Below, in pieces: positions 41,891-52,843 of a stretch of DNA of 64,000 nucleotides; positions within the stretch are counted from its first letter, which is position 1, and every line of letters begins with the position of its first letter. Under the pieces are notes generated by a model. It was not told the DNA's origin, ran no database searches, and saw only the letters and a list, made by a program, of their open reading frames with translations. The stretch spans positions 62,001-126,000 of the forward strand of contig CAMNSS010000001.1 of the NCBI GenBank assembly GCA_946555345.1. The letters run 5' to 3'. Position numbers and translations under genes: made by a program. This DNA comes from an uncultured Eubacterium sp. (GTDB lineage: Bacteria; Bacillota; Clostridia; Peptostreptococcales; Anaerovoracaceae).

Positions 41891-42018
41891 ATCCGATGGC
41901 ATTGGCAGGCATAACGAAAGGGATGCATATGCGGTTAAGTCTGTTTTCTTGATTTTACGAATAAGCATAGCTTCCTTAATCGCCAAGCCGATTTTTTCAA
42001 ACTTTATCTAAAAAACCC

Positions 42019-42047
42019 TTTACATCTGATTTTTCAGGTGGTAAAAT
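42019..42047 (+). promoter_or_regulatory. Promoter of the aromatic amino-acid operon
   Basis: -35 TTTACA (42019-42024), exactly 17 bases, -10 TAAAAT (42042-42047). A start near 42054 would include the whole leader peptide and attenuator. A second weaker pair (TTGTGG/TATAAA, 42059-42088) is possible. Confidence 0.6.
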
Positions 42048-42110
42048 CAGTGCATACGTTGTGGTTTTGCACATAGAAACCGTATAAATCTTAGTTAAGA
42101 GGACAGAAAT

Positions 42111-42197
42111 ATGTTGAACAGAGTCTTTGCAGCTGGATACTTTTATTTTTACTTTACTTTCTTTCGGGGTAAGGTGAATTTCGCTGCAATAAGATAG
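42111..42197 (+). CDS. Phe/Tyr-rich leader peptide of the aro operon
   Basis: A 28-codon open frame with AAGAGGACAGAAAT directly before its ATG. Residues 10-18 read YFYFYFTFF: three tyrosines and five phenylalanines in nine codons. Phe and Tyr are exactly the end products of the downstream operon. Codons 21-24 (AAG GTG AAT TTC) contain the antiterminator strand AGGTGAATTTC (42172-42182), and the stop is at 42195-42197, 36 bases before the terminator. This is the classical arrangement of a ribosome-mediated attenuator, as in enteric pheA, pheST and trp leaders. It is too short for routine gene finders. Confidence 0.82.
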   Translation: MLNRVFAAGYFYFYFTFFRGKVNFAAIR

Positions 42198-42233
42198 ACG
42201 GTCTGTTCCCAGATTAACCAGTCAACAAATCTT

Positions 42234-42265
42234 GCCGCAGGTGAAATTCACCTGCGGCATTTTTT
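42234..42265 (+). terminator. Attenuator terminator of the aro operon
   Basis: Perfect 11-bp stem GCCGCAGGTGA (42234-42244) with TCACCTGCGGC (42248-42258), three-base loop, then ATTTTTT. Bases GAAATTCACCT (42243-42253), covering loop and 3' arm, are the exact complement of AGGTGAATTTC (42172-42182) in the leader peptide frame, giving a mutually exclusive 11-bp antiterminator. Confidence 0.88.
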
Positions 42266-42579
42266 ATGGCTTAGCGGGATCATCCGCATGGGCTAACGGC
42301 TTGGCAAATAGCCAGTAAAGCAGGAACATCTCTTTCGGCGGCTTTCCCGCCCAGAGAAAAGAGGCAACGGCTCGCATACGATTTTACCAATGCCAAAGAA
42401 AACGGAAAGTTGGGTTCTTCCGTCTGCCGGCCGCCAGAAAGCACACAAAGCAGCGGTTCACAGTCGTACGCGGCCGAGGAGTTCAGCAGTCCGCCGCCCG
42501 CAAAAAATCACCAAAAGCAATCAAAAGTTCAAAACAAACCAAAGCGAATCAAAATCAAAAAAGAAAGAGGGAAACGAAA
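42266..42579. other. Leader region between the attenuator and aroF
   Basis: No gene. The last 150 bases are strongly A-rich on the transcribed sense (repeated CAAAA, AAAGCAATCAAAAG and AACCAAAGCGAATC words) and end in AAAGAGGG before the aroF start. Confidence 0.4.
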
Positions 42580-43590
42580 ATGATAGTTGTATTAAAAGAC
42601 AACCCGGACCAAAAACAATTAGACAATTTAGTATCATGGCTAAAAAGCATGGGGCTTGGCATCCACATGAGCGAAGGACAGTCCTCCACCATCATGGGCC
42701 TGATCGGCGACACATCCTCTGTGGACATGGATCTGATCAACGCCCTGGACATCGTCGAAACGGTGAAACGCGTCCAAGAACCATACAAAAATGTCAATCG
42801 GAAATTCCACCCCGAAGACAGCGTGGTTGAAATTGTTCCCGGCGTAAGCATCGGGGGCGGAAACTTCCAGGTTATCGCAGGACCTTGCTCCGTAGAATCG
42901 GAAGAACAAGTATGCGAAGTTGCCGCAGAAGTGAAAAAGGCAGGGGCAGGCCTTTACAGAGGCGGCGCATTCAAGCCGAGGACATCACCTTACGCATTCC
43001 AGGGAATGCGGGATGAGGGCATCAAACTACTTTTGGAAGCGAAAGAACATTCCGGCCTTCCGATCGTGACCGAAGTCATGGATATTTCCCACCTTCCGCT
43101 TTTTGAAAATGTAGACGTAATCCAGGTTGGAGCGAGGAATATGCAAAACTTCGAGCTGCTGAAGGAGCTTGGCCATATTGACAAGCCGATTCTTTTAAAA
43201 CGCGGACTTTCCAGCACCCTGCAAGAGCTGCTCATGAGCGCTGAATATATCATGGCAGGCGGAAACGAGAGAATCATCCTCTGCGAACGGGGAATCAGGA
43301 CCTTTGAAACGGCAACGAGGAACACGCTTGACCTGGCGGCAATCCCGCTGCTCAAAACCATGACCCACCTGCCAATCGTAGTTGACCCAAGCCACGCCAC
43401 AGGTATCGCACACCTGGTAAAGCCGATGGCCATCGCAGCAACCGCAGCAGGAGCGGACGGACTTATGATTGAAGTCCACAACAACCCAGCCGCAGCCCTG
43501 TGCGACGGCGCACAATCACTTACCCCAGCGGCTTTTGCAGATGTAATGGAATGCGTGAACGCAGTAAGGCCTGTCGCATATAAAGGCTAA
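42580..43590 (+). CDS. aroF: 3-deoxy-7-phosphoheptulonate (DAHP) synthase
   Basis: First step of the shikimate pathway: phosphoenolpyruvate plus erythrose 4-phosphate to DAHP. The protein (336 residues) has a short N-terminal ferredoxin-like regulatory domain (about 1-70, MIVVLKDNPDQKQLDNLV...) fused to the TIM barrel, as in the type I-beta enzyme of Thermotoga, whose N-terminal domain mediates feedback inhibition by Tyr or Phe. Typical blocks are VIAGPCSVES, RGGAFKPRTSPYAFQG, ILLKRGLSST and VVDPSHATG. It is the first structural gene after the Phe/Tyr attenuator. No insert is visible. Confidence 0.96.
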   Translation: MIVVLKDNPDQKQLDNLVSWLKSMGLGIHMSEGQSSTIMGLIGDTSSVDMDLINALDIVETVKRVQEPYKNVNRKFHPEDSVVEIVPGVSIGGGNFQVIAGPCSVESEEQVCEVAAEVKKAGAGLYRGGAFKPRTSPYAFQGMRDEGIKLLLEAKEHSGLPIVTEVMDISHLPLFENVDVIQVGARNMQNFELLKELGHIDKPILLKRGLSSTLQELLMSAEYIMAGGNERIILCERGIRTFETATRNTLDLAAIPLLKTMTHLPIVVDPSHATGIAHLVKPMAIAATAAGADGLMIEVHNNPAAALCDGAQSLTPAAFADVMECVNAVRPVAYKG

Positions 43591-43939: not shown

Positions 43940-44779
43940 ATGGAAATCGGGATTGTAGGGCTGGGGCTGATCGGGGGATCGCTCGCCAAAGCCATCAGCC
44001 AAAATACAGACCATACGGTATACGGCACGGATTTATCAGAACAGGTCGTGAAAAAAGCCGTACTGGTAGACGCCATCGAACAGCCCCTGACGGACGAACT
44101 GCTACACCTTTGCGATATCGTAATTGTGGCGCTTTACCCACAAGATACGATCGATTATGTAACAGCACACGCTTCCCTGATCAAAAAAGATGCAATCGTG
44201 ATGGATTGCTGCGGTGTCAAAAGCATCGTCTGTGATGCGCTCATACCACTTGCTGAAAAAAAAGGGTTTCTCTTCATCGGCGGCCATCCAATGGCCGGCC
44301 TGGAGCATTCAGGCTTCGCATATGCAAAGAAATCGCTCTTTCACGATGCGTCCATGATTTTTACGCCGACCAAAGGACCGATCGAAAGCATGGAAACTTT
44401 GAAAAACCTTTTCACGTCCATCGGCTTCACCAATATCGAAATCGCCACGCCAGCCGACCACGACAGGAAAATCGCCTTTACCTCGCAGCTGGCGCACGTG
44501 GTTTCCAATGCATACATTAAAAGCCCGACTGCACAGGAGCATATGGGATTTTCGGCAGGCAGCTATAAGGATTTGACGCGGGTAGCCAAGCTGAACGAGC
44601 ATATGTGGACGGAGCTTTTTCTGGAAAATGCAGATAACCTGGCTCATGAGATCGACACCGTTATCGAAAACCTGCAAAAATACAGCGCCGCCATCAAGGA
44701 AAATGATGCGGACACGTTATGTGCGCTTTTGAAAGACGGGCGGGAAAAGAAAGCGCTCATCGACGGGGAAATTTTTTAG
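43940..44779 (+). CDS. tyrA: Prephenate dehydrogenase
   Basis: Oxidises prephenate to 4-hydroxyphenylpyruvate, the tyrosine branch. The Rossmann motif GIVGLGLIGGSLAKA opens the protein, and conserved parts include FIGGHPMAGLEHSGF (substrate-binding histidine) and FTSQLAHVVSNAYI. The start at 43940 follows GGAGA and fits the conserved N-terminus; the frame's extra 12 codons lie in filler. About 279 residues, without a C-terminal ACT domain, so feedback may come mainly through the operon's attenuator and AroF. Confidence 0.95.
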   Translation: MEIGIVGLGLIGGSLAKAISQNTDHTVYGTDLSEQVVKKAVLVDAIEQPLTDELLHLCDIVIVALYPQDTIDYVTAHASLIKKDAIVMDCCGVKSIVCDALIPLAEKKGFLFIGGHPMAGLEHSGFAYAKKSLFHDASMIFTPTKGPIESMETLKNLFTSIGFTNIEIATPADHDRKIAFTSQLAHVVSNAYIKSPTAQEHMGFSAGSYKDLTRVAKLNEHMWTELFLENADNLAHEIDTVIENLQKYSAAIKENDADTLCALLKDGREKKALIDGEIF

Positions 44780-44955: not shown

Positions 44956-46560
44956 ATGATCAAAATACCTGTTTCCGCATCGCGTAATTACGATGTAATT
45001 ATGGAACGAGGCGCACTGGCGCAAGCTGGGACATATATAAAAGAAGCCCTGCATCTCAAATTTTCTGCGCATCCGGAAGCCGCCGAGACTTCTGGAGCTT
45101 CGGAGGTTTCCAAGCCTTTTAGCTCTCCCAGGCTTTCTGCGCTTTCCGAAACCGCTGTACATCCTAAGCCATCTGGCCGCTCCAGATTTGCCAAGCTTTC
45201 CAAACCGTCGGAGGATTCCGCCAATATGGATGCTGCTAATAAGGATTCCACCAATAAAATTTCCGCTAGCGGCACAAAACTGTGCATCATAACAGACAAA
45301 ACCGTAGATAAATTGTACGGGCAAGAACAGCAGGCTTTATGGAAGTCTTTGGCAGCAGCAGGTTTTCACATCCATAAATATATCTTCCCTGGCGGTGAAA
45401 AACACAAGAATATGGCTACCATCGAAAGCATCCTCAATTACCTGGCGGACAATCAATTCACGCGAAGCGATATCTTATTAGCTTTGGGCGGCGGCATCAC
45501 CGGGGATATCACGGGATTTGCGGCGGCATCCTTTTTACGCGGCATTAGATTTGTCCAAGCGCCGACTTCACTGTTAGCCATTGTGGACTCCTCCGTCGGC
45601 GGAAAAACAGGCGTAAACCTCAATGCTGGAAAAAACCTGGCAGGGGCATTCTGGCAGCCATCGCTGGTGCTTTTCGATCCCGATGTGCTGTCTACCCTTT
45701 CATGCGATTTCAAGCTGGATGGCGTGGCGGAAGCGGTGAAAGCAGGATGCATCGCCGATAAACACATTTTGAACATAGTTCAGCATTATGGAAAATCCTG
45801 TAACGGCGGAAATGCAAAAGGCGTGGCGAACGGCACGGCAACGGATAGCACAACAGAAATTTCGGCAGATTCCCCTCGCTTTGCGGACGGCAACACAGCG
45901 GCAGGCAACACATTGGCGGACAGTAACACGACGGCAATTCAAACAAATTCCCCGCTCTTTACAAACAGCAACGCCGCGGCGGACAGCGGCACGGCAACCA
46001 ATCGCATCGAAGCCAATACCGCTCCTGGCGACGCATCAGCCGCCGCCAGGAGCAATAGCACGCCGCCATTTTCCGCCATGCTCGATGACAACGATTTCCT
46101 CACCAGGCTGGCGGCGCGTGCAATCGAAGTCAAACGGCAAATCGTAGAAGCTGATGAACGGGAAAACAACCTGCGCCAGCTTCTTAATTTCGGGCATACG
46201 ATCGCTCATGCCATCGAAAAATGCAGTAATTACCAAACGAGCCACGGACACGCAGTCGCCATAGGCATGGTCATGATATCAGCCGCCGCAGAAAAATTTG
46301 GCTTAACAAAGGAAAACTGCCATGATACAATTCTGAATATCCTCCGCCGCTTTCAATTCCCGCTGGACTGCCCATACACGGCAGAAGCCTTAACCGAAGC
46401 GGCTCTGCAGGATAAAAAACGGCGCGGGGAAACCATCACGCTGGTAATCCCCGAAAGCCTTGGGCATTGCACGTTGCAATCCATTCCAACAAGCGAGCTG
46501 CGAAAATTCGTCGCTTACGGCTTGGATTCTCTAATAAATCCGAAAGGAATCACGAAATGA
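44956..46560 (+). CDS. aroB: 3-dehydroquinate synthase with two low-complexity inserts
   Basis: Second step of the shikimate pathway, cyclising DAHP to dehydroquinate with NAD and zinc. Conserved blocks are the NAD-binding FPGGEKHKNMATIESIL, LALGGGITGDITGFAAASFLRG (172-196), PTSLLAIVDSSVGGKTGVN, KAGCIAD and the zinc histidines in NFGHTIAHAIE (411-421) and SHGHAVAIGM (429-438). At 534 residues it is about 175 longer than usual. Insert 1 (about 36-106) is S/P/A/E-rich; insert 2 (about 280-373) is N/T/A/S-rich and repeats about 26-residue units starting SPRFADGNT and SPLFTNSNA. Both fall in surface loops and keep frame. The last bases overlap the aroA start (ATGA). Confidence 0.93.
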   Translation: MIKIPVSASRNYDVIMERGALAQAGTYIKEALHLKFSAHPEAAETSGASEVSKPFSSPRLSALSETAVHPKPSGRSRFAKLSKPSEDSANMDAANKDSTNKISASGTKLCIITDKTVDKLYGQEQQALWKSLAAAGFHIHKYIFPGGEKHKNMATIESILNYLADNQFTRSDILLALGGGITGDITGFAAASFLRGIRFVQAPTSLLAIVDSSVGGKTGVNLNAGKNLAGAFWQPSLVLFDPDVLSTLSCDFKLDGVAEAVKAGCIADKHILNIVQHYGKSCNGGNAKGVANGTATDSTTEISADSPRFADGNTAAGNTLADSNTTAIQTNSPLFTNSNAAADSGTATNRIEANTAPGDASAAARSNSTPPFSAMLDDNDFLTRLAARAIEVKRQIVEADERENNLRQLLNFGHTIAHAIEKCSNYQTSHGHAVAIGMVMISAAAEKFGLTKENCHDTILNILRRFQFPLDCPYTAEALTEAALQDKKRRGETITLVIPESLGHCTLQSIPTSELRKFVAYGLDSLINPKGITK

Positions 46561-48146
46561 ATGTACGATTGGAACCGTCAAAACTACAAGGAACGCTCGA
46601 TGCGATTCCTTCCAAATCCCATGCGCACCGCATCCTGATCGCACAAAAACTGGCACAGCTCCAAGGACAGCAAAAGCTCGGCAGCCTAGCCATTCCTGCA
46701 TTCTCCGAAGATATCGAGGCAACGAAAAACTGCCTGGTGCAGATGGATAAAAATATGCCTTATCTCGATTGCAAGGAAAGCGGCTCTACGCTCAGGTTTA
46801 TGCTGCCCGTAGCAATGGCGCTTAAAGACGAAGCGGTCTTCATCGGTTCGGGCAAGTTGCCCCATCGGCCGATCTCGCCCTTGAAGGAAGAAATGGAAAC
46901 GCACGGCTGCCGTTTTTACATGGGAGGCAAAAAGCAAAGCCCTGGCGATAAGTATCGGGAAATCTGCAACATCCGCGGCAGGTTGCAGCCAGGAGAATAC
47001 AGTCTGCCTGGCAACATCAGCTCTCAATTTATCACAGGGTTGTTGTTCGCCCTGCCGATTCTTGATGGAGATAGCGTTTTAACGCTGACGACCGAACTGG
47101 AATCCGCAGGTTATGTGGATTTGACGCTGGACGTCCTCCAAACGTTCGGCATCGAAATCAAAAGCAAAGCTTCGCCGGAAGGTTTGCTGATATATGAAAT
47201 TGCCGGGAATCAGCGTTACCTTGAACCGGATGGACTGACGGTGGAAGGCGACTGGTCCAACGCCGCCTTCTGGCTGGCTGGCGGTGCGCTCGGCGGAAAC
47301 GTCACCGTGCGGGGGCTTAATTTGCACTCATCACAACGTGATAAAGAAATTCTCGATGTTCTGCGGGACATGGGCGCAAATATCAGCATTACGGAATTGC
47401 CAGAACCCTCATATGCAAAAATTTCATGCGCAGGCGAGGGAGGATTGGCAGAGAAAGCATCAGCAGAAAGAACATCAATAGAAGATACGCCAATGGGTAC
47501 TCTGATGGAGGGCAAAGATAGATCGATAAATCCAACAGGTGATTCGGCAGATGCTCCCAGCGCATATAAGCAAGCAAGACAAGCAAACTCCGCCACCGAT
47601 TCAGTAAACCGGATTAAAAACGCAACAAAACCAGCTCTGCCCGCTTGCGAAGAAATGCACGATGCAAGCGCAGCATACGAGCCAGCAAAACCAAACCCGC
47701 CCGCTTGCAAAACAACAAACTGCATGATAACAGTTTACTGCAAAAATGCGCTGAAAGGCACAGAGGTAAGCGTAGCACAAACGCCGGACATGGTTCCCAT
47801 CCTCGCAAGCGTCATGGCGCTTGCAAATGGCGCCTCCATGATAACCAATGCGGAACGCTTAAAAATCAAGGAATCCGACAGGCTTCGCACCGTTTATGAT
47901 TTTCTCTTTAAATTAGGAGCGGATATCACCGACGGCGGCTCAGGGCTTTCCCTGACCGGCAAGCCTCGTCTAAATGGCGGGGAGGTGGAAAGCCACAACG
48001 ATCACCGCATCGCCATGGCCGCTGCAATCGCTTCATGCGGATGCAAGAATCCTGTTCTTATCCGTGGCGCAGAGGCCGTAAAGAAATCATATCCCGCCTT
48101 CTTTGAAGACTTCGCCGCATTAGGCGGCAGCATAAAAAAGCTTTGA
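46557..48146 (+). CDS. aroA: 3-phosphoshikimate 1-carboxyvinyltransferase (EPSP synthase) with insert
   Basis: Joins phosphoenolpyruvate to shikimate 3-phosphate. Conserved parts are SKSHAHRILIAQ near the N-terminus, ESGSTLRFMLPVAMA (74-88), GNISSQFITGLLFALP (152-167), EGDWSNAAFWLAGG (230-243), and VESHNDHRIAMAAAIA and GAEAVKKSYPAFFEDF towards the end. Total 529 residues against about 430 typical. The excess is one block at residues about 283-388 (nt 47403-47720), rich in A, K, S, E and P, lying before ITVYCKNALKGTEVSVAQTPDMVPIL. The start is the ATG at 46557, overlapping aroB's TGA, with AAAGGA upstream; the longer frame extends back into aroB. Confidence 0.93.
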   Translation: MNVRLEPSKLQGTLDAIPSKSHAHRILIAQKLAQLQGQQKLGSLAIPAFSEDIEATKNCLVQMDKNMPYLDCKESGSTLRFMLPVAMALKDEAVFIGSGKLPHRPISPLKEEMETHGCRFYMGGKKQSPGDKYREICNIRGRLQPGEYSLPGNISSQFITGLLFALPILDGDSVLTLTTELESAGYVDLTLDVLQTFGIEIKSKASPEGLLIYEIAGNQRYLEPDGLTVEGDWSNAAFWLAGGALGGNVTVRGLNLHSSQRDKEILDVLRDMGANISITELPEPSYAKISCAGEGGLAEKASAERTSIEDTPMGTLMEGKDRSINPTGDSADAPSAYKQARQANSATDSVNRIKNATKPALPACEEMHDASAAYEPAKPNPPACKTTNCMITVYCKNALKGTEVSVAQTPDMVPILASVMALANGASMITNAERLKIKESDRLRTVYDFLFKLGADITDGGSGLSLTGKPRLNGGEVESHNDHRIAMAAAIASCGCKNPVLIRGAEAVKKSYPAFFEDFAALGGSIKKL

Positions 48147-48479: not shown

Positions 48480-49820
48480 ATGAAATCGAGTTTTGGAAAA
48501 AACATCAAGGTCTCGATTTGGGGCGGCTCCCATGAGCCTGCCATCGGAGTCGATATCGAAGGCATCCCCATCGGAACAGAGATAGACATGACTGCGCTCG
48601 CCGCCTTTTTAAAACGGCGCGCGCCGGGAAACAGCCCGTTTGCGACGAAGCGAAAGGAAGCGGATATCCCGCTTCCGGTAAGCGGCCTTACAGAGCGCAC
48701 GGGCGGCACAGGCAACGACCCCGCTGGCGGCACAACAAGCAACAGTCCAGCAACTGCGACAGACCCAGCAAATCCCACTAACGGCATGACCGATGCGGGC
48801 TCCCCTGCAAATCCCGCTGGCGGCGCATCAGCCGAAAGCCACTACTTTAACGGCGCACCGCCAAGCTGCACCCTTAGCAATGTGCTAAATGGCGATGCGG
48901 CCTTCCCCGCAAACGCCGCTTGCATCCCTGCCTCCCCCGCAAACGCCCTTACCGTATCCGCCAGCCGCATTTCCCTGGAAATACGCAATACCGATACCCG
49001 CTCGCAGGACTACAAAACACTGCGGACGATTCCCCGCCCCGGCCATGCCGACTACACGGCGCGCCTCCGCTACGGCGACGCCTTGAACATGGCGGGCGGC
49101 GGACCTTTTTCCGCAAGGATGACCGCCCCCCTCTGCATCGCAGGCGGCATCGCCCTGCAAATATTACAAAAACAAGGCATCTGCATCGGCGCGCACATCT
49201 ACTCGATCGCTGATGTCAAAGATATGCCATTTGATCCAATCGCAACAGACACCAGGCTTTTGGAAAAACTCAAAACAAAAGAATTTGCCGTAATCAACAA
49301 CACTGCCGCAACCCATATGCAGGAAATTATCATGAGCGCCCAGCAGGACGGTGATTCGGTAGGCGGCATCATCGAAGGCTGTGTCCTGGGGCTTCCTGGC
49401 GGGATTGGCGGTGCGATGTACGAAGGCCTCGAAAGCGCGCTCGCCCCGATTTTCTTTGGCATCCCGGCCGTAAAAGGCGTGGAATTTGGCGCAGGCTTTG
49501 GCGCAGCGGCCTTAAAAGGCTCGGAAAACAACGACCCGTTTTACTATGACGGCAAATGCATCAAAACCCGCACCAACCACCACGGCGGTATCTTAGGCGG
49601 CATCACGACAGGCATGCCGCTCATCGCACGGCTCGCCTTTAAGCCAACCCCGTCCATAAGCCGCCAGCAGGATTCGGTGGATTTAGAAAAAGGCGAAAAC
49701 GCAAAACTCGTTATCAAAGGCAGACACGACCCTTGCGTCGCAGTCAGGGCAGTTCCGATCGTGGAAGCTGCGCTCGCCTTGGGAATTTTAGATTGTATGA
49801 TGGAGGAGAATCATGACTGA
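48480..49820 (+). CDS. aroC: Chorismate synthase with insert
   Basis: Last common step, making chorismate from EPSP with reduced FMN. The protein begins with the conserved SSFGKNIKVSIWGGSHEPAIG and keeps RPGHADYTARLRYG, MAGGGPFSARMTAP, EIIMSAQQDGDSVGGIIEG, GFGAAALKGSENND and RHDPCVAVRAVPIVEA. Total 446 residues against about 360-390 usual. Residues about 72-162 (nt 48693-48965) are G/T/N/P/A/S-rich low-complexity sequence that replaces the short loop before ISLEIRNTDTRSQDY. It overlaps pheA by eight bases, so the two are coupled. Confidence 0.94.
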   Translation: MKSSFGKNIKVSIWGGSHEPAIGVDIEGIPIGTEIDMTALAAFLKRRAPGNSPFATKRKEADIPLPVSGLTERTGGTGNDPAGGTTSNSPATATDPANPTNGMTDAGSPANPAGGASAESHYFNGAPPSCTLSNVLNGDAAFPANAACIPASPANALTVSASRISLEIRNTDTRSQDYKTLRTIPRPGHADYTARLRYGDALNMAGGGPFSARMTAPLCIAGGIALQILQKQGICIGAHIYSIADVKDMPFDPIATDTRLLEKLKTKEFAVINNTAATHMQEIIMSAQQDGDSVGGIIEGCVLGLPGGIGGAMYEGLESALAPIFFGIPAVKGVEFGAGFGAAALKGSENNDPFYYDGKCIKTRTNHHGGILGGITTGMPLIARLAFKPTPSISRQQDSVDLEKGENAKLVIKGRHDPCVAVRAVPIVEAALALGILDCMMEENHD

Positions 49821-50964
49821 ACTAAACTTAAACAACATCCGAAAAGAAATCGATGACATCGATACGCAAATCACGGACCTTTTCAAACAGCGCATGGAAA
49901 AGTCGCTCGAGGTAGCAAAATACAAGCAGGAAAACAATCTCCCGGTTTTTAACGGCAACAGGGAAAAGGAAATTCTCCACAGGGTTTCCGAACATATCGG
50001 CGAACCGTTTGACGGATACGCCCGCCTGCTATTCAACACCATGTTCGACGCATCCAAGTCCTATCAGAACGACTACCTGGCGAGACGATCCGACTTAGCC
50101 GCACGTATCGAAAAAGCATTGGAAGAAACGCCTAAAATCTTTCCCAAAAAAGCGGTCGTTGCCTGCCAAGGCGTCCAAGGTTCTCATTCACAGGCGGCGT
50201 GCGAAAAACTCTTTGAAGTGCCAAGCATCATGTATTTCAACAGCTTTGAAGGCGTTTTCAACGCTGTGGAAAAGGGCCTCTGCCAGTACGGAATCCTGCC
50301 GATCGAAAACAGCTCCTACGGATCAGTGGGAACCGTCTACGATTTAATGCAAAATTACAATTTCCATATCGCCAGCAGCCTGCGCCTGCGCATCAGCCAA
50401 AACCTGATGGCAAAGGCAGGCACGAAGCTCTCCGATATCAAAGAAATCGTATCACATGAGCAAGCCATCGGGCAATGCGGCGAATTTTTAAAGACACTGC
50501 ATGACGTAAAAATAACCGTCTGCGAAAATACCGCCCTCGCCGCCAAAATGGTTGCCGAAAGCGGCAGAAACGACATCGCTGCAATTTCCTCTAAAGAATG
50601 CCTGGAGCTGTACGGACTGGAGCTTTTGAAAACACAAATCCAGATCAGCGACAACAATTATACGCGCTTCATCTGCATTTCCAAGAAGCTGGAAATCTAT
50701 CCAGGCGCAAACAAAATCAGCTTGATTTTATCACTGCCCCACGTACCACGCTCCCTGTACCATACGATCGCTAAATTCGCAGCCCTGGGCATCAACCTGA
50801 CGAAGCTCGAATCGAGACCGATTCCGGGCAGTGATTTTGAGTTTCTATTCTACTTTGATTTGGAAGCGTCTGTATATTCAAAGGAACTGATTAACCTCCT
50901 CAGCCAGCTTGAAAACCAGCCGGAAACCTTCGCATTCCTCGGTTGTTATACGGAAGCCATTTAA
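49813..50964 (+). CDS. pheA: Bifunctional chorismate mutase/prephenate dehydratase (P-protein)
   Basis: Converts chorismate to prephenate and then phenylpyruvate, the phenylalanine branch. The 383 residues comprise a chorismate mutase domain (about 1-88, IRKEIDDIDTQITDLFKQRMEKSLEVAKYK), a prephenate dehydratase domain (about 112-285) with CQGVQGSHSQAACEK, ENSSYGSVGTVYDLM and the TRFICISK region, and a C-terminal ACT domain (about 298-378) with ESRPIPGSDFEFLFYFD, the phenylalanine-sensing motif. So it should be feedback-inhibited by Phe. GGAGGAGAATC before the ATG lies inside the end of aroC. No insert is seen. Confidence 0.96.
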   Translation: MTELNLNNIRKEIDDIDTQITDLFKQRMEKSLEVAKYKQENNLPVFNGNREKEILHRVSEHIGEPFDGYARLLFNTMFDASKSYQNDYLARRSDLAARIEKALEETPKIFPKKAVVACQGVQGSHSQAACEKLFEVPSIMYFNSFEGVFNAVEKGLCQYGILPIENSSYGSVGTVYDLMQNYNFHIASSLRLRISQNLMAKAGTKLSDIKEIVSHEQAIGQCGEFLKTLHDVKITVCENTALAAKMVAESGRNDIAAISSKECLELYGLELLKTQIQISDNNYTRFICISKKLEIYPGANKISLILSLPHVPRSLYHTIAKFAALGINLTKLESRPIPGSDFEFLFYFDLEASVYSKELINLLSQLENQPETFAFLGCYTEAI

Positions 50965-51274: not shown

Positions 51275-52843
51275 ATGATGAAATACGGATTGATCGGAAA
51301 AACGCTGGTTCACAGCTATTCCAAGGAGATACACGAAGCCTTGGGAAAATACCAATATGATTTATTCAGTTTACCGCCGGAAGAATTAAGCGGGTTTATC
51401 GCCGCACGGGATTTTGGCGGCCTCAACATTACGATTCCATATAAGCAGGATGTCATGCCCTTATGCGATGAGATTTCGGAACTGGCGTCAGCAATCGGGG
51501 CAGTAAACACATTGTATTGGGGAAAGGACGCTGATGCAAAGGGGCAGGCGGCAAGCGAACCAAAAACACAGCCCAGCACAGGCGGCAAACAGCAAGCTGG
51601 AAACATGGAAAATGCGGCAGGCGTTTGCGTGCTAAGCGAGCCTGTTTGCGATGCAGATGGCGCACCTGAAAGACCTGCCGCCACGCCAAACGCCAGCAAT
51701 TCATATAAGCTGGTCGGCCACAACACCGATTATGAAGGATTTCTCTACACAGCAGCACGCGCAGGCATTGATTTCGCGGGTAAGACCGTCCTCATCTTAG
51801 GCACTGGCGGCACATCGCTCATGGCGAGAAAAGCCGCCGCAGATCAAGGCGCTGCCAAAATTCTAATCGCTTCAAGATCCAAACATCCCCACCCGCAGGA
51901 CACTGCTATGCAAGACGCTATAGCGGACCCGGCGGCCTGCGCTGAGGCAGAAAACCCGCAAGCCCGCCGTGCCGCCGTAAAAAAGGCAACCGCAACAAAG
52001 CGGGCGGCGGACGACGACGCACAGCACGCCTGCCAACAGCTAACCTATGGCGAATTGCCAGCCATAGCCGCCGCCGTTGACATTATCGTCAACACAACGC
52101 CTGTGGGAACTTTCCCGAACAACCTGGAAAGCATCATAAGCCTTGCCGATTTTCCAAACTGTACTGCCGTAATCGATGTAATCTATAACCCATTTAAAAC
52201 AAAACTACTCCTGGAAGCAGAAAAGCGGGGCTTGCGATACGCCAACGGACTACCCATGCTGGTGGCGCAGGCGACTGCCGCCGCTGGCTATTTTCTCGGT
52301 ACGCAAGGCGCATTTTACGAAGAAAACGAGCGAATCATCATTATGCTGGCGAAACAAATGCGGAACATCATCCTCATCGGCATGCCCGGCTGTGGGAAAA
52401 CCACGATCGGAAAAATCCTCGCCCAGAAAACCGGCAAAAAATTCGTGGACATGGACGAGGCCATCACGCAAAAATCCGGGATGCCCATCCCGCAGATTTT
52501 CGAGCAGTCGGGAGAAAACGGCTTCCGGGATTTAGAGTCGGAAATCGCACGAGAGCTTGGCAAGGAACACGGCCTCGTCATCGCCACAGGCGGAGGCGTA
52601 ATCCTGCGCCCCGAAAACGTGGATGCACTCCGCCAAAACGGATTCGTTATTCACATCACCAGGCCGATCGATGCACTGCCGATGGACGGCAGGCCGCTTT
52701 CCAAAGACCTTGGCACACTGCAGAAAATGGAACAAGCCAGGATGCCGCTTTACAAGGCCGCTGCCGACGCAACCTTTTCCAACCACCGAACGCTTACCAA
52801 AGCCGAACTCGCAAAATCCATTTCCACGCTTTTGCATGAGTAG
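51275..52843 (+). CDS. aroE: Fused shikimate dehydrogenase and shikimate kinase with two inserts
   Basis: Residues about 1-360 are shikimate 5-dehydrogenase: substrate-site HSYSKEIHEALG (S-x-S region), GLNITIPYKQDV with catalytic lysine 57, NTDYEGF, and the NADP loop LGTGGTSLMARKAAADQG. Residues about 364-522 are shikimate kinase: P-loop GMPGCGKTTIGK (369-380), VDMDEAI, ATGGGVILRPENV and the lid GRPLSKDLG. It is an AroE-AroK fusion with no spacer gene. Two low-complexity inserts sit in the dehydrogenase: about 84-143, before YKLVGHNTDYEG, and about 203-255, after LIASRSK. ACGGAGAAC precedes two adjacent ATGs. It ends the aromatic operon. Confidence 0.93.
   Translation: MMKYGLIGKTLVHSYSKEIHEALGKYQYDLFSLPPEELSGFIAARDFGGLNITIPYKQDVMPLCDEISELASAIGAVNTLYWGKDADAKGQAASEPKTQPSTGGKQQAGNMENAAGVCVLSEPVCDADGAPERPAATPNASNSYKLVGHNTDYEGFLYTAARAGIDFAGKTVLILGTGGTSLMARKAAADQGAAKILIASRSKHPHPQDTAMQDAIADPAACAEAENPQARRAAVKKATATKRAADDDAQHACQQLTYGELPAIAAAVDIIVNTTPVGTFPNNLESIISLADFPNCTAVIDVIYNPFKTKLLLEAEKRGLRYANGLPMLVAQATAAAGYFLGTQGAFYEENERIIIMLAKQMRNIILIGMPGCGKTTIGKILAQKTGKKFVDMDEAITQKSGMPIPQIFEQSGENGFRDLESEIARELGKEHGLVIATGGGVILRPENVDALRQNGFVIHITRPIDALPMDGRPLSKDLGTLQKMEQARMPLYKAAADATFSNHRTLTKAELAKSISTLLHE

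Follow-up and report, generated by a model that had tools for sequence, protein, structure and literature searches.

A ribosome-mediated transcription attenuator was predicted before the aroF operon in the window (the whole 64,000-nucleotide stretch of DNA that was analysed), which would sense charged tRNA-Phe and tRNA-Tyr; we put the probability of this reading at about 90%. The first-pass annotation had proposed that one leader senses both Phe and Tyr for the shikimate-to-Phe/Tyr operon, and sequence comparison supported this role, since the aromatic run was conserved, the pairing covaried and the codons tracked the enzyme encoded downstream. The aromatic genes would very probably be switched on only when Phe and Tyr run short.

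Leader region and downstream operon

The promoter, the Shine-Dalgarno (SD) site and the 28-codon leader with the run YFYFYFTFF, all reported in the first-pass annotation, could each be found in the sequence (Table 1), the promoter as a promoter-like match. A lone match to the promoter hexamers was not beyond chance, with 10 in the region against 9.4 in shuffles. TTTACA-17-TAnnnT was observed 59-100 nt upstream of the leader start in 9/9 sequences (the window and eight close relatives), and SD-like sites also preceded the leaders of many relatives. The aromatic run occupied leader codons 10-18 (42138-42164), and no Trp codon existed in the leader. The terminator was present as reported, with its stem being 12 bp instead of 11 bp through an additional A-U pair at the loop, and the reported 11-base complementarity was exact: AGGTGAATTTC (42172-42182) is the complement of GAAATTCACCT (42243-42253). 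The RNA of 42095-42270 folded with a z of -5.2 against dinucleotide shuffles.

Table 1. Features of the predicted attenuator, of the operon behind it and of T-box-like elements in the same genome
Feature	Position	Strand	Basis
Promoter-like TTTACA-17 nt-TAAAAT, TG preceding the second hexamer	42019..42047	+	hexamer match
SD-like AAGAGGA of the leader	42097..42103	+	sequence
Predicted leader ORF, 28 codons, ATG 42111 to TAG 42195-42197, peptide MLNRVFAAGYFYFYFTFFRGKVNFAAIR	42111..42197	+	
Segment 1, TTGCAGC, codons for FAA ahead of the run; partner 42183-42189	42127..42133	+	MFE fold, own-vs-foreign test, shuffles
Predicted antiterminator 5' strand (segment 2), AGGTGAATTTC-G-CTGC-AAT-AAGAT	42172..42195	+	duplex tests, covariation
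Predicted antiterminator 3' strand: terminator 5' arm, loop and inner 3' arm	42229..42253	+	duplex tests, covariation
Intrinsic terminator stem-loop, 12 bp, loop AAT	42233..42259	+	sequence
Terminator U-run	42260..42265	+	sequence
aroF, DAHP synthase with ferredoxin-like domain	42580..43590	+	PF00793, PF18152, NF006421
tyrA, prephenate dehydrogenase (start codon inferred)	43940..44779	+	PF02153, PF20463
aroB, 3-dehydroquinate synthase	44956..46560	+	PF01761, PF24621
aroA, EPSP synthase (start codon inferred)	46557..48146	+	PF00275
aroC, chorismate synthase	48480..49820	+	PF01264
pheA, chorismate mutase-prephenate dehydratase	49813..50964	+	PF01817, PF00800
aroE-aroK fusion, shikimate dehydrogenase-shikimate kinase	51275..52843	+	PF08501, PF01202
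T-box-like elements before trpB, ileS, leuA and a TrpB-like gene	G000 C5:21759-22014, C21:10634-10812, C1:257833-258076, C10:35266-35563		

The spacer from the terminator to aroF (42266-42579) was 314 nt in the window, against mostly about 20-65 nt at other loci with the element. A special folded element in this spacer was considered and rejected, with a fold z of -0.5.

The aromatic operon had been described as complete. It was confirmed as a seven-gene operon from aroF to aroEK; its completeness did not hold, as 3-dehydroquinate dehydratase is encoded elsewhere. One type I enzyme was identified in the genome on another contig (G000:C2:29128-29853), and no type II enzyme was found in the genome. 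AroB, AroA, AroC and AroE-AroK appeared to carry long low-complexity insertions rich in Ala, Ser, Asn and Pro within otherwise ordinary enzymes, with the Pfam matches showing gaps there.

Two profiles found no trpE in this genome, whose completeness was rated at 96%. Chorismate therefore seems to be used for Phe and Tyr here, fitting the leader without Trp codons.

Conservation of the leader and its codons

The aroF set combined 30 loci, the best places from a search of 61 whole genomes (50 of which matched), with the top-ranking 80 among 586 relatives from named genomes. A strict rule was applied to each locus, namely an SD site, 12-60 codons and at least six Phe or Tyr in nine codons, no more than 600 nt upstream. 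With L013 excluded, the rule was satisfied in 66/109 aroF loci (15/29 and 51/80), in 1/109 loci on the opposite strand and in none of ten shuffled sets. Conservation of the aromatic run in relatives, named in the first-pass annotation as a check on its reading, was therefore found, with 66/109 loci against 0 in shuffles. The 43 loci failing the rule included, by eye, members of the window's genus in which aroF lies behind a pheA end (L009-L012, L014, L016 and L017), besides leaders without an SD match and loci without a visible leader. A terminator was recognized by rule in 64 of the 66 leaders, one of them an artefact (L080), while L046 and L063 had none.

Named carriers included Angelakisella massiliensis, Yanshouia hominis, Anaerotignum neopropionicum, Aminicella lysinilytica and Emergencia sp.; Sporobacter termitidis possessed the leader without an SD match. 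Phe and Tyr swapped positions and synonymous codons varied among the nine closest sequences (window included), and the run codons of the 66 leaders were TTT (323), TTC (62), TAT (135) and TAC (134).

A covariance model (R2) was built from 39 rows, all of them aroF loci, and used at a cut-off of E <= 0.001. Matches were detected in at least 14/61 relatives, at least 29/393 genomes of the class, at least 29/78 genomes of one family, at least 31/142 genomes of that family's order (in 1/28 genera) and at least 8/398 genomes of the phylum; these sets overlap, and the counts are lower bounds with 7-47 candidates scored per genome. The 79 distinct matches were located before aroF (53), pheA (19), tyrA (1) and a sodium symporter (6), and none was before any other kind of gene.

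At each match, the short ORF with the highest combined content of Phe, Tyr and Trp was read as the leader, and the gene was assigned from the first ORF that matched the operon proteins of the window by BLAST. Tyr codons were present in 52/53 aroF leaders (no leader was read at L204) and absent from 17/19 pheA leaders. One pheA exception (L159) had a single Tyr outside the run, and the other (L143) had several Tyr, with a downstream protein only 32% identical to PheA. Seven genomes (G279, G468, G474, G478, G479, G496 and G507) held both elements, and in 7/7 the pheA leader had no Tyr and the aroF leader had six or seven. Because R2 was trained on aroF leaders, the missing Tyr before pheA is no product of the search; 18/19 of the pheA cases came from one genus. 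The identity of the leader codons thus matched the pathway downstream, as in an amino-acid attenuator.

The six symporters behind a Phe/Tyr leader (L119-L124, e.g. L119:1702-3156) belonged to the window's genus. The three that were scanned were PutP-like with PF00474, and the other three had their N-terminus in common with these. From the leader, the PutP-like symporter was predicted to be an aromatic amino-acid importer.

Antiterminator pairing and the proposed switch

The 11-bp pairing was the distal half of a longer predicted helix, in which AGGUGAAUUUC-g-CUGC-aau-AAGAU (42172-42195) pairs with AUCUU-gcc-GCAG-gu-GAAAUUCACCU (42229-42253). Duplexes of the locus's own leader part (X) with own and with foreign terminator regions were compared independently of any alignment, in 63 loci and in 25 loci after thinning at 75% identity, with L080 dropped. 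The composite duplex reached a mean of -24.4 kcal/mol with the own region and -18.3 with foreign ones in the 63 loci (z -12.7), and -26.7 against -19.8 in the thinned loci (z -8.7); the own sums were reached by 0/20000 permutations. The parts gave smaller values, with z of -4.6 (63 loci) and -1.8 (thinned) for X with the loop and 3' arm alone, and of -4.9 and -4.3 for the 15 nt with the 5' arm alone. Against 200 dinucleotide shuffles of X, the composite helix had a mean z of -2.25 with p <= 0.01 in 25/63 loci, the two halves had -0.68 and -0.69 (4 loci each at p <= 0.01), and control segments had -0.12 and -0.39 (0 and 2 of 63 loci). The duplex spanned the 5' arm, loop and 3' arm jointly in 57/63 loci.

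Covariation was measured in alignment A3 (from covariance model R1), with 39 rows hand-picked from 55 matches after setting aside near-duplicates and matches that were weak, truncated or doubtful, some of the doubtful ones lying on the wrong strand; the last AAGAT part of the antiterminator 5' strand was excluded from the model. The 18 pairs were formed in 91.1% of cells, and double changes occurred in 16 pairs and 80 cells, against 22.4 cells in shuffled alignments and at most 28 in slid registers. The score was 0.419 against at most 0.078 in slid registers, and 0/500 shuffles reached any of five measures. When all 55 rows were kept, doubtful ones included, 90.6% of cells were paired, with 116 double-change cells and a score of 0.370. 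Within the nine closest sequences only, 93.7% of cells paired, and double changes (2 pairs) were not above shuffles, 325/500 being as high. As the covariation alignments were fitted to the structure, the weight is carried by the own-versus-foreign and shuffle tests. Compensatory pairing, which the first-pass annotation expected in the 11-bp half, was thus found for the composite helix, the half being weak alone. By these comparisons the conserved element is the predicted composite helix including the terminator 5' arm, rather than the 11-bp half.

A protecting (1:2) hairpin was also indicated: TTGCAGC (42127-42133) paired with GCTGCAA (42183-42189) in the MFE fold. The segment before the run, paired with own against foreign X, had a z of -10.9 in 63 loci and -7.7 in the thinned ones, and a mean z of -1.23 against shuffles (9/63 loci). 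In most symporter leaders the protecting pair, read by eye, was ACATCGCA/TGCGATGT, another sequence at the same place. Neither the protecting hairpin nor the proximal antiterminator half had been noticed in the first-pass annotation.

In the proposed mechanism, 42172-42195 would have two exclusive partners, 42127-42133 in the protecting hairpin or 42229-42253 in the antiterminator. When Phe and Tyr are plentiful, the ribosome would reach the stop codon and mask much of the antiterminator strand, so that the terminator forms. A ribosome held in the Phe/Tyr run would mask segment 1 and leave the antiterminator strand free. This strand would then pair with the 5' arm and loop of the terminator during their exit from RNA polymerase, while the 3' arm is still inside, and transcription would proceed through aroF-tyrA-aroB-aroA-aroC-pheA-aroEK. 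On an RNA that carries no ribosome, termination would be expected through the protecting hairpin, which is the least certain step. The layout is that of a ribosome-mediated attenuator, in that the predicted antiterminator excludes the terminator and overlaps the stretch that a ribosome would cover on reaching the stop codon, and a protector pairing exists, whose no-ribosome effect was weaker in the model described below.

Equilibrium folding of the complete transcript gave a terminator probability above 0.5 in 63 of 63 loci with no ribosome, in 59, 53 and 58 with a ribosome at the first, middle and last codon of the run, and in 63 with one at the stop codon. For the window it was 0.96 and was lowered only to 0.86 by a ribosome mid-run. 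The terminator probability was higher at the stop codon than mid-run by more than 0.3 in 11/63 loci, with the reverse in 0 and a smaller difference in 52, so the switch was not reproduced by full-transcript equilibrium folding. Since the terminator was favoured at equilibrium in most loci and in every state, the switch would need to act during transcription.

A truncated-transcript model was devised after this result; it assumes the exposure points and a ribosome footprint of 12 nt, counted from the first nucleotide of the codon in the A site. With only the 5' arm and loop exposed, a ribosome stalled at the first, middle or last aromatic codon left X with at least five pairs in 58, 59 and 61 of the 63 loci, respectively, against 28/63 without a ribosome and 19/63 with one at the stop codon. 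Exposing 4 further nt of the 3' arm changed these counts to 61, 63 and 62 when stalled, 40 with no ribosome and 16 at the stop codon. Pairing mid-run exceeded that at the stop codon by at least two pairs in 51 loci, with the reverse in 5, and in 58 and 0 with the 4 additional nt. In the window, with 4 nt of the 3' arm out, the pairs of X numbered 13.4 with no ribosome, 14.2-15.6 when stalled and 4.2 at the stop codon. These modelled results fit a decision during transcription, less clearly so for the state without a ribosome.

A simpler switch, the minimal model of the first-pass annotation, in which the antiterminator is 42172-42182 with 42243-42253 only and competes with the finished terminator, would draw on the exact 11-base complement and on the z of -4.6 over 63 loci. 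It was judged improbable, for after thinning this half kept a z of just -1.8 with a shuffle-control mean z of -0.53 (1/25 loci at p <= 0.01), whereas the composite helix stayed strong, and the half would need to displace a finished 12-bp hairpin. The run could also be the site of an RNA-binding regulatory protein switching the terminator, with translation uninvolved, since TTT, TTC, TAT and TAC codons make it pyrimidine-rich. Yet the run kept its open frame and start codon, Tyr codons were missing mainly before pheA, and the order of Phe and Tyr differed among relatives, a pattern more in keeping with codons than with a protein-binding motif; such a protein site would be very improbable.

T-boxes are often used by Firmicutes for such operons, and this genome had four T-box-like matches, all below the Rfam cut-off, upstream of ileS, leuA, trpB and a TrpB-like gene. 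The terminator might therefore be driven by a T-box or by some other riboswitch that binds a tRNA or a metabolite, leaving the short ORF incidental. However, Rfam 15 at gathering score gave only a tRNA in the window and 0 matches in 16 related loci, and at E <= 5 the T-box (RF00230) was absent from the matches to 41950-42600. The highest sub-threshold score there belonged to trpB RF04312 (22.4 bits, cut-off 59); Spot 42 had the lowest E (0.24, 20.1 bits, cut-off 80). The conserved Phe/Tyr ORF, with codons tracking the downstream enzyme, speaks against an incidental ORF as well, and a riboswitch appears extremely improbable beside ribosome-mediated attenuation.

Known systems and extent of the family

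Ribosome-mediated attenuation is classical in enteric bacteria, with its 1:2, 2:3 and 3:4 logic. E. coli pheL-pheA, pheM-pheST, trpL-trpE and other enteric attenuators likewise have a product-rich leader peptide and a terminator before the gene. They differ from the present case, in which Phe and Tyr codons occur together before a shikimate-to-Phe/Tyr operon, and in which the predicted antiterminator 5' strand of the window sits inside the leader ORF. Pairing into the terminator loop and 3' arm was considered as a new architecture and rejected, because a crude duplex test found it in 5/7 E. coli attenuators as well as in 59/63 loci here.

Leaders of related kinds have been proposed outside Proteobacteria. 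Upstream of aroF in Acholeplasma, the uORFC-13-1 motif comprises a uORF that contains Phe codon(s) and a terminator behind it; attenuation was proposed for this motif, with 24 representatives only in Acholeplasma and unknown environmental organisms (PMC8632094). Compared by its description only, it has at least one Phe codon, and the passages on it give no Tyr run or antiterminator (PMC8632094). A putative short leader with Phe-Tyr-Phe, predicted in an RNA-seq study, lies before aroF of Corynebacterium glutamicum, alike in position and codons, although this organism is an actinobacterium, unlike the present host (PMC4046766). Leader-peptide attenuation was proposed for Bacillus hisZ/hisS* with His (PMC2965389) and was backed by reporter data for S. 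aureus ilv-leu with Leu/Ile (PMC5794164); as described there, these amino-acid-rich leaders are alike, with other amino acids and clades. Among the matches listed from titles and abstract openings of the open-licence PMC literature, no Phe/Tyr leader attenuator in Clostridia was found, and likewise no covarying antiterminator, codon-enzyme match or symporter of the present family.

The predicted element belongs to a widespread family of attenuators of the known, ribosome-mediated type, which recurs in many relatives. We regard it as somewhat probable that Clostridia and some neighbours share one large undescribed attenuator family as their main Phe/Tyr control, sensing Phe and Tyr before aroF and Phe only before a stand-alone pheA, that the PutP-like symporter under the same leader in the window's genus is therefore an aromatic importer, and that the family stands in one genome beside T-box-like elements for Trp, Ile and Leu genes. 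If this is true, the leader codons would be a readable code for what each aromatic operon senses, and a substrate would be suggested for an unassigned sodium symporter. Leader-peptide attenuation would then exist beside T-box-like elements in the amino-acid operons of one Firmicutes-type genome, giving a case for studying the replacement of one sensing system by another.

Leaders of about 26-57 codons preceded aroF in L018-L030 (order-level relatives), several with the recurring YFYF..(W)GFYFSAGYF, and were also seen about 1.1-1.2 kb upstream of aroF in the window's genus (L010, L016 and L017). They are possibly a second subclass; those of L018-L030 that satisfied the strict rule were kept in the pairing tests. 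Close aroF relatives were also found in bins labelled Treponema, Oligosphaeraceae, Lentisphaerae, Planctomycetia and Victivallales (L065-L067, L071, L087, L091, L097 and L110). The same leader type was seen in several bins labelled Treponema, Lentisphaerae, Planctomycetia or Victivallales, which may reflect transfer or mis-binning.
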